DNA of 64,000 bases from Antedon mediterranea (Eukaryota > Echinodermata > Crinoidea > Comatulida > Antedonidae): assembly GCF_964355755.1 (NCBI RefSeq), contig NC_092671.1, positions 7,451,001-7,515,000 on the forward strand, in the 5' to 3' direction. Positions within the stretch are counted from its first letter, which is position 1. Each line of letters begins with the position of its first letter. The position numbers were made by a program, and so were the translations under genes. Shown here piece by piece: positions 3,001 to 12,131 of the stretch. The notes beneath the pieces are model-generated. The model ran no database searches. It saw only the letters and a list, made by a program, of their open reading frames with translations, and was not told the DNA's origin.

Positions 3001-6000
3001 TCGGTACAACAGTTCTGTGTCCTCAGAATGACTAGAGGGGGTGCTGTGTAACATATTTTTCAGTTGTTGTTGACTCATTTTTGGATTCTTAAGACGGGCA
3101 AGTGTGCGATCAGACGTGACAGTTCTATCGCTATGAGCAACAAAGTAATCTTCAGCCATGTTCTCCTAAACCAAATATAATATTTTTAAATGAAAAATAA
3201 AGAAACCATAATAAAAATTGTTAAAATCATACATATTAAAATATCTATGTAATGAAATAACAATAATGGTTTTCTTTAATAGCACTTAATACAATGTTTT
3301 TACACAAAAACGATCCATAAAAATATCTAAAGCTCTGTCTACACTATAAAAAATTATGTGACAAAAAATGTGATGTTCCCATATATGGACATGATGATGT
3401 CATATCCATATTTGAGCATATCACTACCATATTTGGGCACATCACACTTTTTTTGTTCTGAAAGTGTAAACAGAGCATTAAATTAACCAAAAAAAGGATG
3501 ATGCAGAGAAACAATTTTTCACTTCTCCATTCTCCAACACTCACATGAGTTAATTCCTATCCAATAACATTTTTTTTAAACCACTCTAGGCTAAAAAATA
3601 TATAATTGATAATGTGCTGCCCTCGATAACGGTCACGTCTTCTAGACAGCCAGATAACCAAATAAGACACTAGATAGATGTACATATAGTTAGAGCATGG
3701 AGCTATAGCTCCATGGTTAGAGTTTTGTTACTAACATTTATTATGCGTCGTATCGTAGTATATTATATTGGTAAAACTGTGGAGGATTACAAAGAAAAAC
3801 ATTATCTAGACTACATTAAAAATAGCAATACAGCGTATAAACATTCAATTTAGCTGTTTAAGCAAAAAAGGTAACGTAATTATTCTAATAAAAATCTAAA
3901 TTAATATCTTTGATAGCGATACTGTACTCTTTAATTAATATAACATTTCAACAAAGGTATAGGCATCAATGGTACAATTATGCCTATGCATTAATACTAG
4001 GAATGAATTAACAATAAAACATTGTCTTGGACTATAGACTGTAATTACTAAGATAGATACTGTACATATAGCCAGTACTATAAAGTAGTAACTTGATTAA
4101 ATAGTATATATGGACCTATATATGGCCTAATTAAAAGTTAAAATAACAATTATAAATTAACATGTACTCACACACTGTGATTCTTAAATAGAGACACGTC
4201 AAAGATATAAAAAGAAATGGACTTCTCTCAGTGAATGCTACTGTATTACTAATACTTTATATAGTACAATGTACAAATTAAGTCTATGCATTGGAATGTC
4301 CAAATCTAAACAAGTGCCTTAATTAATGATAATACAGTGTGGTACCCAGAGGTCAAAACTAGGAGTAACCATGGTAACACTTAAAGTTGCAATAAATTCA
4401 ATAGTGGACTGACTACATTTTATATTAAGGATAACCAGGGAAGAGTTAATCTTCCCTGGGATAACTATACTAAGTAAATTTTTAAGGAAATTTATTTGAA
4501 GACAAAATAGATAATAAGCCTACTGTTTGTATGTCAGCCCTGGTTCTCCTCTTCATTGTGGTAGTGTTATTCTTAGACTGCTGAGGTTTATTTGCTGAGG
4601 CCTTCACTGATTCTGAATCTCGACTGCTTGTACTACTAGCACTATCACTCATATCTTCCTCGTCATCGGACACATCTTCACTTTCAGATGAGTAATCACT
4701 GTCAAGATCAACATCACGCACAGCACCTAACAAAAAAATAAAGCCCTGTCTACACTATCAAACCCAAATTGTGCCCATAAATAGACACGATGATGTCATA
4801 TCACTACCATATTCAGGTATATCACTAACATATTTTGGCACATCACATTTTTTTGTCAAACTAGTTTGATAGTGTAGACAGAGCTTAAGATTATAATACA
4901 GTAAATTATGGATATTAAACCTTTCTAATGGGATGTAAAAACAAAAAACTTTCAGGTACAGACTGAAAGAAAGCAGTCTTTTCATAGGGAGATCTAAACT
5001 TCTGTCTACACTCTCAAAGTTTATGTGACAACAAAATGTGATTTCATATCACTATCATATTTGGGTACATCACACGTATTTGTTGTCAAACTACAGTAGA
5101 ACCTGTGTTTTACGTACCCTGATTTTACGTTCCCTTGATTTTACGTACGCTTAAAATAACCGATGACGTCATCATTTTCTTACATTGAGGGCGCAATTTA
5201 ACAACAACAAAGCACACAAAGCCACAATCATGGCTGTGTGTGGAATTCTGCTGTGTGTTTGAGTCAAGCTACGCACGTGCAGCGACTGTTTTTATTGATA
5301 GAAAATACAAGAACATTGATATTTTACACTTTATTTAAACATCTCACAGCCTGTATATACTGTACAGTACTGTATTTTTCTAGTTAGGCCTCGCATCTTG
5401 CTAGGCCTGCTAGCCTGGCCTGAAAGTCTAGGCAAGGCCTAGCTAGTGACAACCTACATGCTGTTCAATAAAGTAGACAAACAAGGTAGCCTTTATAGCT
5501 ACGATCTCTACGTATTTGGGGTAAATTTAAGGTCAACCTTGATTTTACGAATCCTTTGTTTTACGTACGCCTTTCGATCCCGTACCGTACGTAAAATGGA
5601 GGTTCTACTGTAGTCTGATAGCGTAGACAGAGCTAAATGGGGAAGGGGACAGCTGGCCTATCCATAAGTCCTAACCTCTTCTAGCAGAACGTCTTGTTGG
5701 TAATTTTCTGGTTGCTGGTGTCTGTGGTTGTTGCTTAGTTGACTTCTTCGTTGAGACGGGTTTCAGAGGTGTGGTTTTACTTGTGATTGGTGTGCAAGTC
5801 TCGGCAGCTAATTTAGCCATTTGGCCTGCCCTCTTTGGTGTTTTGAACTGATACACTGCGCTGCTAACTACTCCTCGTTTACTGTCTTCTTCATAACCCT
5901 CTACAAGCACTGTATATACAAAACAAAACATTTATTAATGTGGTTTAGTGGTTAGTATCAGGCGTGGATTTAGGCAGGGGCTTAACAGGCTTTAGACCCT

Positions 6001-7461
6001 CTAATATTTAACAGCTATGTCTTTTTAAAATAAAATTAATACTATTTTCTGCAACCCGACAGATCGTTTTTTTCATTTATGAAATATTTAGCTCTCCTCC
6101 ACCCCACCCCTGATCTATAATGCTGGATCCGCTCATGAGTATTCAACATCGTAAACATGAGTAGGTCCAAAGGACAAACAAATATTATACATGTTTATTT
6201 TGTCAGGATATTTTTTTTTTTTAAATGGGAGAAATAATTTTAGCAGGACAGTGGGAGATGACAGAAAATATCGGGATATTCCAGCAATTATCCTAATAAT
6301 ATTAGGGAGGTCTGAATTAGTATTCAACATTTGCAAATATGGAACAGAATAAATTAATTTTGGTTAGTCTGATTTTTGTTTAAAGCATGTCCACACTATA
6401 AAGGGTGCTATAACAGTTTGAACAATATATCAATCGTAAACATGGGTAGGTCTAAACAGATTCTATTAAGAGTCTAGTTGTAGAAGTTACACATTTTATT
6501 TTGTCGGATTTTTGTGTGTTTTTTTTTTTAAATTGGAAGAGATCATATTTTAGCAGGATAGCAGGAGATGACACAACATATCTGGATACTCAATTATCTC
6601 AAGATTTGGGAGGTATGAAAAATGATATTAATATATTTCTAATACAAACCAGAGAAAATCATATTATAAGTTTAACTGCCAGTAGATAAATTATTTATAA
6701 TTCACCTGATGGAGTGTTTTTATGTTTAAGCTTGTTAACATCAGTTTCTTCATCACTGTCACTGGATTCAGAGTTTGAGGGAAATTTGTTTTCTCCATCT
6801 TCTTTATATGAAACTTTTTTTCTGGTACTTCGTTGAGGATAACTTGGTTTAGCTAGTTTTTGAACTTGTGAACGAAGCTTTCTTGTCTTCTTTTCTGTCG
6901 TTTCTGTTTGAAAATGTTAAATAAATAATATTAATAATAATATAATATAAATTATAAATAATTTACAAACTTTGAGACTCAACATAATAGACAAGACGTC
7001 AGCAGTGTGTGTTCTAAATGCGAAAGATGGTGTTTTTAAAACAAAATCGTGCTTCAAAATAGAAATAGGTGATCACTAGAATCATGTAATTTACATTGGA
7101 GCCTACTGTAGAAAATACTTAGGTAGGCCCAGGTTTGGCCTGCTCGCTCTTCTCTGGCTTGCAAGGATTGGGACCTAATAAAGGACCTAGCTAGGCCTAG
7201 CTACCTGGTCCTACTAGTACTAGTAAGTAGGCCTTAGTTAGTAGGCCTTTAGCCTAGCGGGAGGCCTAGGGCTAGGCCCGGCGGGTTACATTATTTATGA
7301 AATATCGACTAAAATGTATTCATTTGTTCTATTATCGCCTTGTAATACTCACTAGCAACTGCGTCGGTCAGGTTAATATGGTTTACTATGTCACAATCAG
7401 AAACAAACGTCAAACGGTTCAAAGAAACTACCGGCGTTTCTTTTTCACTGGGGGCTGCCAT
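1..7461 (-). CDS. ORC2: Origin recognition complex subunit 2 (C-terminus beyond window)
   Basis: ORC2 is a core subunit of the origin recognition complex, which marks replication origins and helps load MCM helicase. Eleven exons join in frame: 7353-7461, 6706-6903, 5676-5909, 4524-4726, 2960-3165, 2550-2682, 2270-2372, 1719-1856, 895-1066, 351-412 and 1-93 (about 550 residues; human is about 577, so roughly the last 30-40 are off the left edge). The N-terminal ~250 residues are low-complexity, basic and acidic, with serine/aspartate/glutamate runs, typical of the disordered ORC2 tail. The conserved AAA+-like part starts near residue 250 ([15 protein letters not shown]). It includes [12 protein letters not shown] (~320-331, degenerate Walker A region), [27 protein letters not shown] (~399-412), [13 protein letters not shown] and [12 protein letters not shown]. 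The last visible segment, [20 protein letters not shown], begins the C-terminal winged-helix part. All junctions are GT-AG. Introns hold several MITE copies. The start lies 100 bp from the divergent ZNF830 start. Confidence 0.97.
480..1370 (-). mobile_element. LINE 3'-end fragments in ORC2 introns 9 and 8
   Basis: In intron 9 (413-894), GATAAGATAAGATAATATTT followed by ATTGGTTCATC near 480-515 is a minus-strand retrotransposon tail made of (TTATC) units. In intron 8, GTAAGTAAGTAAATTTATTG near 1252-1275 is another of the same type. Exon 9 of ORC2 lies between them, so these are two separate insertions. No coding part remains. Confidence 0.5.
3329..3478. mobile_element. MITE family A copy 1 (ORC2 intron 4)
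   Basis: The ends are AAGCTCTGTCTACACTAT and the diverged inverse AGTGTAAACAGAGC. The interior has the family's ATGTGATG, ATATGGACATGATGATG and TTTGGGCACATCACA segments. Confidence 0.85.
4741..4887. mobile_element. MITE family A copy 2 (ORC2 intron 3)
   Basis: About 147 bp, complete, with ends AAGCCCTGTCTACACTATCA and TTTGATAGTGTAGACAGAGC. The interior matches the other family members. Confidence 0.9.
4997..5635. mobile_element. MITE family A copy 3, interrupted by a younger element
   Basis: The left part is 4997-5091 (AACTTCTGTCTACACTCTCA) and the right part is 5613-5635 (CTGATAGCGTAGACAGAGC). They are separated by a separate inverted-repeat element flanked by TA duplications. Removing it and one TA restores the family sequence. 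Confidence 0.93.
5094..5610. mobile_element. pogo/Tc1-like MITE nested in family A copy 3
   Basis: 517 bp with inverted ends CAGTAGAACCT and AGGTTCTACTG, extended by imperfect TTTTACGTACG-type repeats. Exact TA flanks lie at 5092-5093 and 5611-5612. TA duplication and CAGT termini fit the Tc1/mariner (pogo) superfamily. It is non-coding. Confidence 0.9.
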
Positions 7462-7561
7462 GTTTAAAAAAAAAATAAACATAAGATAGAGGGCGGGCCA
7501 GAGTTCCCGTTTTATTTTTATGTTGCAGTTGTGTAATAATAGTAAACAAGTTGTTTAGACC
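7462..7561. promoter_or_regulatory. Head-to-head ORC2/ZNF830 promoter
   Basis: Only 100 bp separate the two divergent start codons, so both promoters and 5' UTRs must sit here or overlap the first exons. I see no TATA box at a useful distance; the stretch has an A-run beside the ORC2 start. A shared bidirectional promoter is inferred from the geometry; transcription start sites cannot be read from sequence alone. Confidence 0.7.
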
Positions 7562-10500
7562 ATGATGGCATCTAAAAAGGTGGATATTCGGCAACTTATG
7601 AAAAGGCAAAAAGTGCAAAACAGCTTATCATCTACAAAAAAAATAGATTCTCCGTTAGCAAGATATCCTTTTAAAGTGTTTAATTTAGTTAATTCATAGA
7701 ATACATTAGATCTAATCTAGGCCTCCTAGTGTAGACTCTCTGCCAATATGGTGGTAGCGGGACGTTTTCGGCCCAACAGTGGGCCGAATCGACCACACCA
7801 AACCTGGGCAAATTATATTTCCTTAATATAGCCTTACATATAACAGTCTTGGACAGTTATCATGTAAAGTATGTAACATACAAATCAAGAGTGAAATTCT
7901 ATGGAAAAGTCATCTACAAAGTAGAAAGCATAAAGAGGTAATTTAAATAAAAAGTGTCAGTCTTTTTTGTCTCTTTCATCTTTTTCTTTACTCATTTTAG
8001 ACGGTTCCAGGACGATTGGTTAAGGAAAATTTTCTATATGTTTAGTCAAAATAAACCACAACAACACCACTCAGGAGAGACTCCTTTTTTTGACACAAGA
8101 AAGACAAGCTGTGTGACCCAAACACTGCAGACAATACATAGACTAAAGCTATAATTTAAGAAAGTGACTACATACATGGTCTGACTTACTGACCAATGGC
8201 ATGGGGTCAAACATTTGTGTATTAATTTTTTAATTTTTTATTGGCATAGTTAACCATGCATCTAATGTTGCATATTCTATCAGCATGGTGGAGGAAACAA
8301 CATTTATTGAATTGATGAATTTGATCCACAGTTGAACATGCAGATAGGCTCCACACCAAATATTAACCATGCTGATAGATATAAAATACACTTAATAGCC
8401 TCATCTCAAACTTAGGCCTTCAGAAAGGAGGATTTATAGAATTGTTAGGTGAATCTATTCTTTTTTGCAGAGTCTTGAATTATTAAAATCAGGTAAACCT
8501 CAAGTAGCAACCACTCCAGCAGCAGCAACCAAAAACAAAGCAAAGCAAGTATACCAAGAGGAACCTGTAACAAAGAAAGCTAAAGGTGAACACTAACAAA
8601 TGAATTTTTATAATACAGTATAAGAATGACAGGACCTTAGCATTATGAAGAGGCATAAATTAGAAGTAGACTGGGTGCACAGTAGTGTACACATACAATT
8701 TGACTGATAACATATAAAACAACCAGTCTTTGTATAATTTTTAGTCAATACATGTATATAATTTCCAGATTTCATAGAAACATTTTATTAATCTTTTAAT
8801 CTTTTTTTTTTTTTAAACATTAGTTGAAGAAACATCAAAGGGGTAAGTTGTATAATGTGCTTTCTAGTATTCAAGCTAATTACTAATTATTTAAAAGATA
8901 CTGATTTTATTTGTATATCAATACATAATATTAATATAGTGTTTATTTTCCTATAGTTTACCTGCAGACTTTTTTGATACTGAAATAAGTTCATCGGACA
9001 CAACACAAGCATCAAATAACAAAAAATTACCTGATGGTAAAGACATTATCATTATCTTAATTAACATTAGGGAGGTTTCACAATCTTACGAATACGATAA
9101 CGAAAACGGATACGTCACGCACACGTATTTGTTTTTCGTAAGCCAGTAAAAATCTGTTTCGCATGGCAACGAAATATTGAGGGCGCCGTCCAAAATATGA
9201 CTGCGGTAAATTTGAGCGAAGGTGCTTGGCTGCCTAGGCCTAGCGTAACATCAAAGCGAGTAAGGACTTTAAAAACTGCTATTTATCAAAATTGAACTGG
9301 CATTTTAATAAATTACTTTAGTAAATTACTTTCAATAAATCTATAATTATGTTATAATCATTAATCATTCCTGCAAAATGTGCAAAATAGATAAAAAACT
9401 ATACTTGTTTTGTAGTTACGAATATGACTGGTGATATTCTTCAACACGAATACGCTTTACGAATATGAAATGGGGATCAGCTCAAAAGTTTCACAAATGT
9501 GTGACGTATTCGTTTTCGTTATCGTATTCGTAAGGTTGCGAAACCTCCCTAGTATCACTGATTTTATCCACTTATTGTTAGAACAGAGTTATGTTCTCAA
9601 TCAATAACAAATTACCTGATGGTAAAGACATTATCATTATCTTAATTAACATTATCACTGATTTTATCCACTTATTGTTAGAACAGAGTTATGTTCTCAA
9701 TAAAAGAAGCAAATTTGCCAATTACAATAGAAACCCTATTTAGAGAAAACCCAACAAATTTTGTTGAGCTTGAATCTAACCTAAGCTATTTTAGAGTTAC
9801 TAGTGAGGTTGTTATACCTGATAAAAACTGTTTAAAAGACAGTTCTCTAATACATCAGAGTTTCATAAATTACCCAACACTGTAATTAATCTGGTGCAAA
9901 ATGTGTATTATAGTTCATAGTTCATATACATTTATTCAGTTATTATTAAAATGACTACAATTAATTAATTAGCATCATAATACCTATCACTACCATCACC
10001 AATACATACTCCACCTTTTAAAATGCATTTTAAATATCTGTTTAGACTTTTTTGACTCAAATATCAAACCTAGTAGCCAACCTGAAACGACAACCGAAAA
10101 AGATGTACAGCCAGAAAGGTATGTTCCATTTTAAAGAAGGGATTTCTATTATGATGATTGTTAACAATCTAACTTAACTATCTTAAAACAATAATTTTGT
10201 ACATTTCTTTGCATATTTTTGTTTAAATTTTTGTTAACATGTTTTTTTTCCAAGTTCAAAAACCATGGCTGAAGCATTACCAGAGGGTTTCTTTGATGAT
10301 CCTGACATGGACGCCAAAGTACGTAAAGTAGAACCAAAGAAAAACATAGACGATGAGTGGGCAGAGTTTCAAAAGGTCATGCAACAAGAACAACAGGTAT
10401 GTATGTTATCCTGAACGTCTTTTTAGCTTTACTGATACTACCATAAGCCTACTCTAAGTGGTGTGGTTGAATGGTTAAGTTTGGACAAACCTGATTTTCT

Positions 10501-11549
10501 CACAGCACAACTTAACTCCTATGCCAACTACTGTATATTATAACATTACAAAATACATATTAAGCCGGATTCTTGCATCTAAAATTTGCAAATAATAGTG
10601 TATGGTATTTACAAATACTGTTTGAATTAAAGAGAAATAATTCATCGTATTTTATATTTCCAAGGTTTCAGAGGCCATTCTTGAGGAAGATGTTGATGAG
10701 GCCCAGAAAGAAAGACAGATAGACGAGATTGATGAACAAATGTAAGATTTCATATTATTTACATATTGGCTTGCAGTATGGACAGAATTTTCAAACCACC
10801 AGACTCGAACCCTCAGTTTTCATAGTAACTCCACCATTCCTCTGTGTGCTCACTAACCATAAAGTGATTGAAATTGACCCAATTATCTTTATAAAATGTA
10901 ATCAGCTATACCTGCCAACTCTCACACATAGTGCACGAGTCTCACACACGAGGGCCATTCTTTTATGCCTCGTGCATACATGGCTATTTCTCACACATCC
11001 ATAAATATATTCAGAAAAGGCATTATTTTGGAATTAACTTGCCTATTTTAAAGGAATAGCCTAGGACTACACATTATTTAATTAATTTGAGCATAATTAG
11101 CCTAGGCCTACAGTATGTGTTTTGTATTTTATGGTTAGTACAGGAAAGCCAATTCAATTTGCAACAAACTAAACATAGAGAGGATATTTTGTGAGGGCGC
11201 TACATACAATTTTACTTTAATGTATCATGCATTGGCCACTGAAAAAGTTAGCAGGTACAAGCATACACAAGGTTTTTTTTCTCATGAATAAGGTAGACAT
11301 GGTAAACCTATTCTATAACATAACATAATTGCATCACAATAACAACTTCTGAATGATTCTCATTCTGTTTAAAGTACAAGATGGAAGAAAACAGACATCC
11401 TACGTGACAAACAAGAAGAACTAAGGGCAAAAGCAAATGAAAGGGATTCCTCATCAAAAGACAATGAAAATGTGGAAGATGATGATGATGACGACGAAGC
11501 AGATTTTGAAGAATTTTTAGATTGGCGGTCAAAAGAAGCATGGAATTGA
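7562..11549 (+). CDS. ZNF830: Zinc finger protein 830 (CCDC16 family)
   Basis: ZNF830 is a nuclear C2H2 protein linked to spliceosomal complexes and genome stability. Nine exons join in frame to 293 residues (human is about 372): 7562-7662, 7838-7937, 8471-8585, 8824-8842, 8957-9036, 10046-10118, 10255-10396, 10665-10741 and 11375-11549 (stop TGA 11547-11549). The N-terminus has the family signature ([25 protein letters not shown]). One zinc finger has C43, C46, H59 and H65 (C-x2-C-x12-H-x5-H). A short motif, LPxxFFD, occurs three times: LPADFFD (~113), LPDDFFD (~136, split by intron 5) and LPEGFFDDP (~171). Then come a charged coiled coil ([35 protein letters not shown]), an acidic run and the C-terminal LDWRSKEAW, all family traits. 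Intron 1 is AT-AC; the rest are GT-AG. Exon 4 is only 19 nt. The start is ATGATG; either Met is possible. Confidence 0.96.
7663..7837 (+). other. U12-type AT-AC intron in ZNF830
   Basis: The intron begins ATATCCTTTT and ends with AC. TTCCTTAA, a match to the U12 branch-point consensus, lies just upstream of the 3' splice site (about 7819-7826, with AC at 7836-7837). Only this AT-AC junction restores the conserved reading [16 protein letters not shown] alternatives nearby (GT at 7676, AG at 7829-7830) give an early stop. U12 5' sites of the form ATATCCTT are known to be removed by the minor spliceosome. Confidence 0.93.
9015..9702 (+). repeat. Tandem duplication of a ZNF830 exon-5 end and adjacent intron
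   Basis: About 90-100 bp comprising the end of exon 5 (coding LPD), its splice donor and following intron occurs twice. Copy A is 9015-9067 continued at about 9553-9605. Copy B is about 9603-9702 and is intact. Copy A is split by the MITE at 9068-9551. The two copies are almost identical, which suggests a recent event. Copy B has a duplicated donor but no evident acceptor, so it is probably silent. Confidence 0.9.
9068..9551. mobile_element. MITE with long terminal inverted repeats
   Basis: The ends are inverted copies over about 40 bp: TAGGGAGGTTTC at the left, continuing with CTTACGAATACGATAACG, and the reverse complement at 9509-9551. It is about 484 bp with no coding potential. The ends are bounded by TA. 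It sits in intron 5 of ZNF830, inside one copy of a local duplication. Confidence 0.88.
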
Positions 11550-11754
11550 AAGTGTCATTCATCCATGTTAAAGTGGTATAAATGTAAACATGCTGAAAAG
11601 ATTGTACTATAATGCCCAGTTCTTGGAAGCTTTGCTCATCTATGGCTTTAGATTTCACATGTCTGATACTAATACAACTTACAGAGATCACCAGAATATC
11701 TTCGATATGGTTTTTCAATGATGATTAATAACAATCATTGCAATCTAATTTGAA

Positions 11755-11886
11755 CAGCTGCAGTGAATCTATTGCACAGCTGCAGTGAATCTATTGCAGA
11801 GCTGCAGTGAATCTATTGCACAGCTGCAGTGAATCTATTGCACAGCTGCAGTGAATCTATTGCACAGCTGCAGTGGATCTATTGCA
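11755..11886 (+). repeat. 22-bp minisatellite in the ZNF830 3' UTR
   Basis: Six head-to-tail copies of CAGCTGCAGTGAATCTATTG plus CA, with two single-base variants. Each unit contains the palindrome CAGCTG. It starts about 200 bp after the ZNF830 stop codon and so is probably transcribed in its 3' UTR. Confidence 0.95.
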
Positions 11887-12131
11887 CAGAGGTTGATATA
11901 TAATAGTATAACTATTACACAGTATATTATTTGTTAAATTTCAAATTAGGTCCATTTTCAAATAACGTGTTTGATCAGACTACATGCAACCCACTGGAAT
12001 TGTCTAAGCCCAGGCCAGGAAAGTCAATATCCAAACATTGCCCTGAAAAGCAGTTCTGTTATCTGCCTGTTATATGAAATGTAATATTATATATCAATAT
12101 AGGCAGACCTAGCCAATTACTATTCTTTTTA

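Follow-up and report, generated by a model that had tools for sequence, protein, structure and literature searches.

The ZNF830 (CCDC16) gene of the crinoid Antedon mediterranea carries a first intron that, to judge by its sequence, is very probably of the U12 type with AT-AC termini, and most likely orthologous to the first intron of the Drosophila gene CG11839. The gene lies in a 64-kb stretch of DNA (the window, to which all coordinates refer unless otherwise stated) and has nine coding exons, which encode 293 residues once joined. Apart from intron 1, the remaining seven introns of the model are all GT-AG. The gene is laid out as follows:

7562..7662, plus strand: exon 1, coding part, with the start ATG at 7562 and the end ...CCGTTAGCAAG
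7663..7837, plus strand: intron 1, AT-AC, U12-type, phase 2, 175 nt
7838..7937, plus strand: exon 2, C2H2 zinc finger
8471..8585, plus strand: exon 3
8824..8842, plus strand: exon 4, 19 nt
8957..9036, plus strand: exon 5
10046..10118, plus strand: exon 6
10255..10396, plus strand: exon 7, in which the ZNF380_CC coiled coil (PF23406) begins
10665..10741, plus strand: exon 8
11375..11549, plus strand: exon 9, coding part including the stop codon

The joined protein has the domains of the ZNF830/CCDC16 family, a zf-met/jaz-type C2H2 finger (PF12874, PF12171) and a C-terminal coiled coil (PF23406); in Pfam, ZNF380_CC (PF23406, E 5.3e-29) and zf-met (E 2.7e-8) both score above cut-off. The Pfam name ZNF380 we take to denote the coiled coil of ZNF830. 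A search of solved structures with this protein gives no match at E 0.001; when E was relaxed to 10 there were 12 chains, the best (0.0036) being yeast Bud20, and none bore the name ZNF830. Viral_contigs and genome_contigs, scanned once each, gave no relative for comparison. When a retrocopy, usable as a natural cDNA, was sought, all 8 protein matches (E 1e-3) fell at this same locus. A search for COX1, intended to place the lineage through its mitochondrial code, gave no match. Within the protein, LPxxFFD motifs recur at residues 113, 136 and 171, in the successive exons 5, 6 and 7 (8957-10396), the second of them spanning the exon 5/6 junction, which suggests small exon duplications. Some 100 bp separate the start of ZNF830 from the possible start of a neighbouring gene on the minus strand (5671-7461), apparently arranged head-to-head, for which a rough join of open reading frames has no Pfam match at E 0.01. 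At the other end, a tandem repeat of several 22-bp units (11750-11903) is likely to belong to the 3' UTR of ZNF830.

The 5' splice site of U12-type introns has the form [AG]TATCCTT, and the branch sequence the form TTCCTT[AG]A[CT]. Intron 1 has both, ATATCCTTTT at 7663 and TTCCTTAAT at 7819, together with AT and AC termini. The exon 1 bases leading up to 7662 are ...GATTCTCCGTTAGCAAG and exon 2 opens with ATATAACAGTCTTGGACAG, so that the junctions read AAG/ATATCCTTTT...TTCCTTAATATAGCCTTAC/ATA (slashes mark the splice sites), the final intron bases being CCTTAC. The signals lie at:

7663..7672, plus strand: U12-type 5' splice site ATATCCTTTT
7819..7826, plus strand: U12-type branch sequence TTCCTTAA, the branch A most likely 7826 (or 7825)
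7836..7837, plus strand: 3' splice site AC, 11 nt beyond the branch A

This is the intron that a first-pass annotation of the same DNA had described, 175 nt long, beginning with ATATCCTTTT, ending with AC and carrying TTCCTTAA near its 3' end. The 5' site and the branch sequence are given as the defining features of U12 introns, with a best distance of 11–13 nt between branch and 3' splice site (PMC3584512). From A7826 to the last intron base there are 11 nt, or 12 if A7825 serves, within that range. In the joined gene the intron is in phase 2, in agreement with a bias against phase 0 that has been reported for U12 introns (PMC7367187).

The likeness to intron 1 of CG11839 in Drosophila melanogaster extends to the gene, the rank (first intron), the AT-AC subtype and the U12 class. 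The two introns come from different species and are likened by gene, rank and subtype; we infer from these characters that they most likely share a position and an origin. The 2010 catalogue of fly U12 introns is reportedly the work of Lin and colleagues. It holds 19 introns, of which number 11 is CG11839 (ZNF830/CCDC16) intron 1, AT-AC and absent in human (PMC2831892). The same source attributes the intronless ZNF830 of mammals and fish to three retropositions, and describes the chicken and frog genes as having introns; the intronless state of the mammalian gene, also given in the first-pass annotation, is stated there. Elsewhere CG11839 is listed among the fly genes with U12 introns (PMC2952598), and of the known U12 introns of the fly its intron 1 is the one predicted to pair most weakly with U11 (PMC7644725).

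It appears decidedly improbable that ZNF830 gained a U12 intron independently in the crinoid's own lineage, so that this intron would be unrelated by descent to that of the fly. A recent insertion could leave a dispersed repeat within the intron and the sequence ATAT at both of its ends, and both are seen here, the repeat at:

7756..7809, plus strand: dispersed palindromic repeat of the TTCGGCCCAC type, one copy within intron 1

However, the repeat match takes up only 54 of the 175 nt and includes none of the splice signals, ATAT belongs to the U12 5' site itself, and the fly intron is of the same subtype and the same rank in the same gene.

The intron 1 copy of this repeat family, which is built of TTCGGCCCAC units, is diverged (85% over 54 nt). 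A 30-base stretch of the family is matched exactly 30 times in the assembly, the reversed control 0 times. The predicted fold of the intron 1 RNA is better than those of 200 of 200 shuffles (z -2.86). Intron 5 contains a MITE-like element (9068-9551) with 54-nt inverted repeats, 93% complementary and 376 nt apart. Beyond this element, at 9597-9654, there is a second version (93%) of the 58-nt stretch 9012-9069, which takes in the last part of exon 5 together with the 5' splice site there; the second version may offer a cryptic donor, and perhaps preserves the site as it was before the element inserted. A further repeat of 52 nt in the same intron (9553-9604 and 9653-9704, 98%) recurs 100 nt on.

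The choice of junction was examined by enumerating in-frame, stop-free splices with donors in 7590-7799, acceptors up to 7861 and a product reaching GQLSCKVC, where GT-AG, GC-AG, AT-AC, AT-AG and GT-AC termini were allowed. There are 29 of these, and only 7663-7837 yields the full 12-residue conserved junction peptide, as had been proposed for this junction at the outset; the peptide is called conserved by comparison with what we take to be the residues of human ZNF830. Five junction registers give an identical coding sequence, because ATAT is present at both ends of the intron, and of these five, register 0 alone ends in a recognised pair (AT-AC). Retention of the 175 bp as coding sequence, which had been named as a possible objection, is ruled out: read-through adds 11 more codons before a TAG, with further stops beyond. 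The nearest competitor for the same junction, though a highly improbable one, is a GT-AG splice of the U2 type at 7654-7831 (TCC/GTTAGC...TTAATATAG/CCT), used instead of the AT-AC splice or beside it, as in a twintron. It is in frame, and its product is only one residue shorter than that of the AT-AC splice. U2-type donors usually have AG before the site and a purine at +3; by this consensus TCC/GTTAGC is a poor donor, lacking both. Of the in-frame GT-AG splices, the remaining three (7654-7846, 7678-7831 and 7678-7846) use either this donor or AGT/GTTTAA, and splicing at 7654-7831 would leave the U12 signals unexplained.

The motifs themselves are not rare. In the 64 kb, counting both strands, RTATCCTT occurs 5 times against 6.5 expected from shuffles, and TTCCTTAA 7 times against 5.2, and a U12 motif pair 40-3000 nt apart turns up in 98 of the 300 Markov surrogates made from the window. 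Tried as a significance test, an unconstrained motif scan was uninformative alone. At one named position the probabilities are far smaller, about 5e-5 for the 5' motif and 4e-5 for the branch motif, from shuffle rates of 6.485 and 5.19 per ~128,000 positions. The motifs carry evidential weight because they coincide with a junction already set by coding homology. That the exon boundary has been misjudged and the motifs lie there by chance, the true first-exon structure being different from that given here, is hardly credible despite the frequency of such pairs in the surrogate windows, since the motifs fall exactly on the junction that the protein requires and the other 28 in-frame splices lack the full 12-residue peptide.

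The assembly also contains the snRNA genes expected of a host with U12-type splicing. Minor spliceosomal snRNA genes above the Rfam cut-off are present for U12 (one), U11 (two), U4atac (one) and U6atac (two), the second U6atac match passing only narrowly (33.7 bits, cut-off 33). Predicted pairing of ATATCCTTTT with the 5' ends of the two U11 genes gives -6.4 and -6.5 kcal/mol, and with the 5' end of a U6atac gene -7.9 kcal/mol. The U11 energy is a weak discriminator and was dropped as such, as it is equalled by 1187 of 9140 21-mers of the window. Predicted pairing of the branch sequence TTCCTTAA with nucleotides 13-30 of U12 (-8.3 kcal/mol) is rarer, being reached by 114 of 9141 15-mers.

As a positive control, four regions encoding Band_7 domains were retrieved from the 8 matches listed. 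One of them, L015, reads by eye as prohibitin-2. It is likely to hold a PHB2 ortholog, at approximately 4530-7580 of the reverse complement of that region, and in it an AT-AC intron of the U12 type of about 2.7 kb. After the exon sequence ...GAGTCAGCAATCATG comes ATATCCTTTC, and AACCTTAACATTGATTTGTAC stands before a later exon that reads CTGGGAGAGGCC; the junction reads SAIM/ATATCCTTTC...AACCTTAACATTGATTTGTAC/LGEA, and joining restores SAIM/LGEA. Intron 1 of ZNF830 and this intron share the genome, the AT-AC subtype, a ATATCCTTT 5' site and a CCTTAA branch. They differ in gene, in length and in the PHB2 junction falling between codons, and the branch sequence of the PHB2 intron is the weaker, with CCTTAAC only against the full TTCCTTAA in ZNF830. 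In the other three Band_7 regions (L014, L016 and L017), the strand that was read lacks [AG]TATCCTT. For PHB2, an AT-AC U12 intron is recorded for both fly, as intron 3 of l(2)03709, and human, as intron 5 (PMC2831892, Table 2). By its sequence, Antedon mediterranea very likely holds at least one further AT-AC minor intron, in PHB2. The U12 class that the first-pass annotation assigned to the ZNF830 intron thus agrees with its splice signals, with the continuity of the coding sequence, with the U11, U12, U4atac and U6atac genes, and with this second AT-AC intron.

Removal of intron 1 would proceed with pairing first of U11 and then of U6atac to ATATCCTT at the 5' site, while U12 would pair with TTCCTTAA and leave the branch A bulged. 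The minor spliceosome would then join AAG to ATATAAC, giving a continuous junction peptide of 14 residues. In evolutionary terms, an old intron would have been retained in this lineage, and lost in the lineages of mammals and fish when a retrocopy replaced the gene.

The link between ZNF830 and splicing, invoked in the first-pass annotation, is documented: CCDC16/ZNF830 is tied to splicing through the intron-binding complex (PMC6735682). An unlikely extension of this would make intron 1 a conserved rate-limiting control on a component of that complex, common to flies and this lineage, by which the minor spliceosome feeds back on the major one, and which the retrocopy abolished in mammals and fish. 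It is favoured by the fall of CG11839 protein in miso-null fly ovaries, where minor splicing is impaired and 8 of 12 detected products of minor-intron genes are lower, CG11839 included (PMC12084885). It is opposed by a fly U6atac mutant, where the CG11839 row has zeros in what appear to be the change columns and the authors report that U12 genes in general were not consistently affected (PMC2952598).

Reports of ZNF830 minor introns in other invertebrates were absent from the open-access matches listed, among which only the papers cited here deal with ZNF830 and minor introns. ZNF830 is not mentioned (0 occurrences) in the text of a survey covering more than 3000 genomes, whose supplementary data may already include intron 1 of this genome (PMC10639083). 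Two other matches contribute nothing to the question of the intron: PMC9505925, and PMC13326754, in which the gene matched is CCDC163.

For genome annotation, the locus is a useful test case, as a gene finder limited to GT-AG introns would break or alter exon 1 of ZNF830. The suggestion that a U12 intron here bears on ancestral gene structure is not new: it was drawn in 2010, in the work that lists the fly intron and ascribes the absence in mammals and fish to retroposition (PMC2831892). Very likely the crinoid gene is a further carrier of an old intron that was already known, and its comparative value is small. It would add one more animal with the AT-AC intron in ZNF830, and fits the view that this intron is old and was lost by retroposition in mammals and fish.
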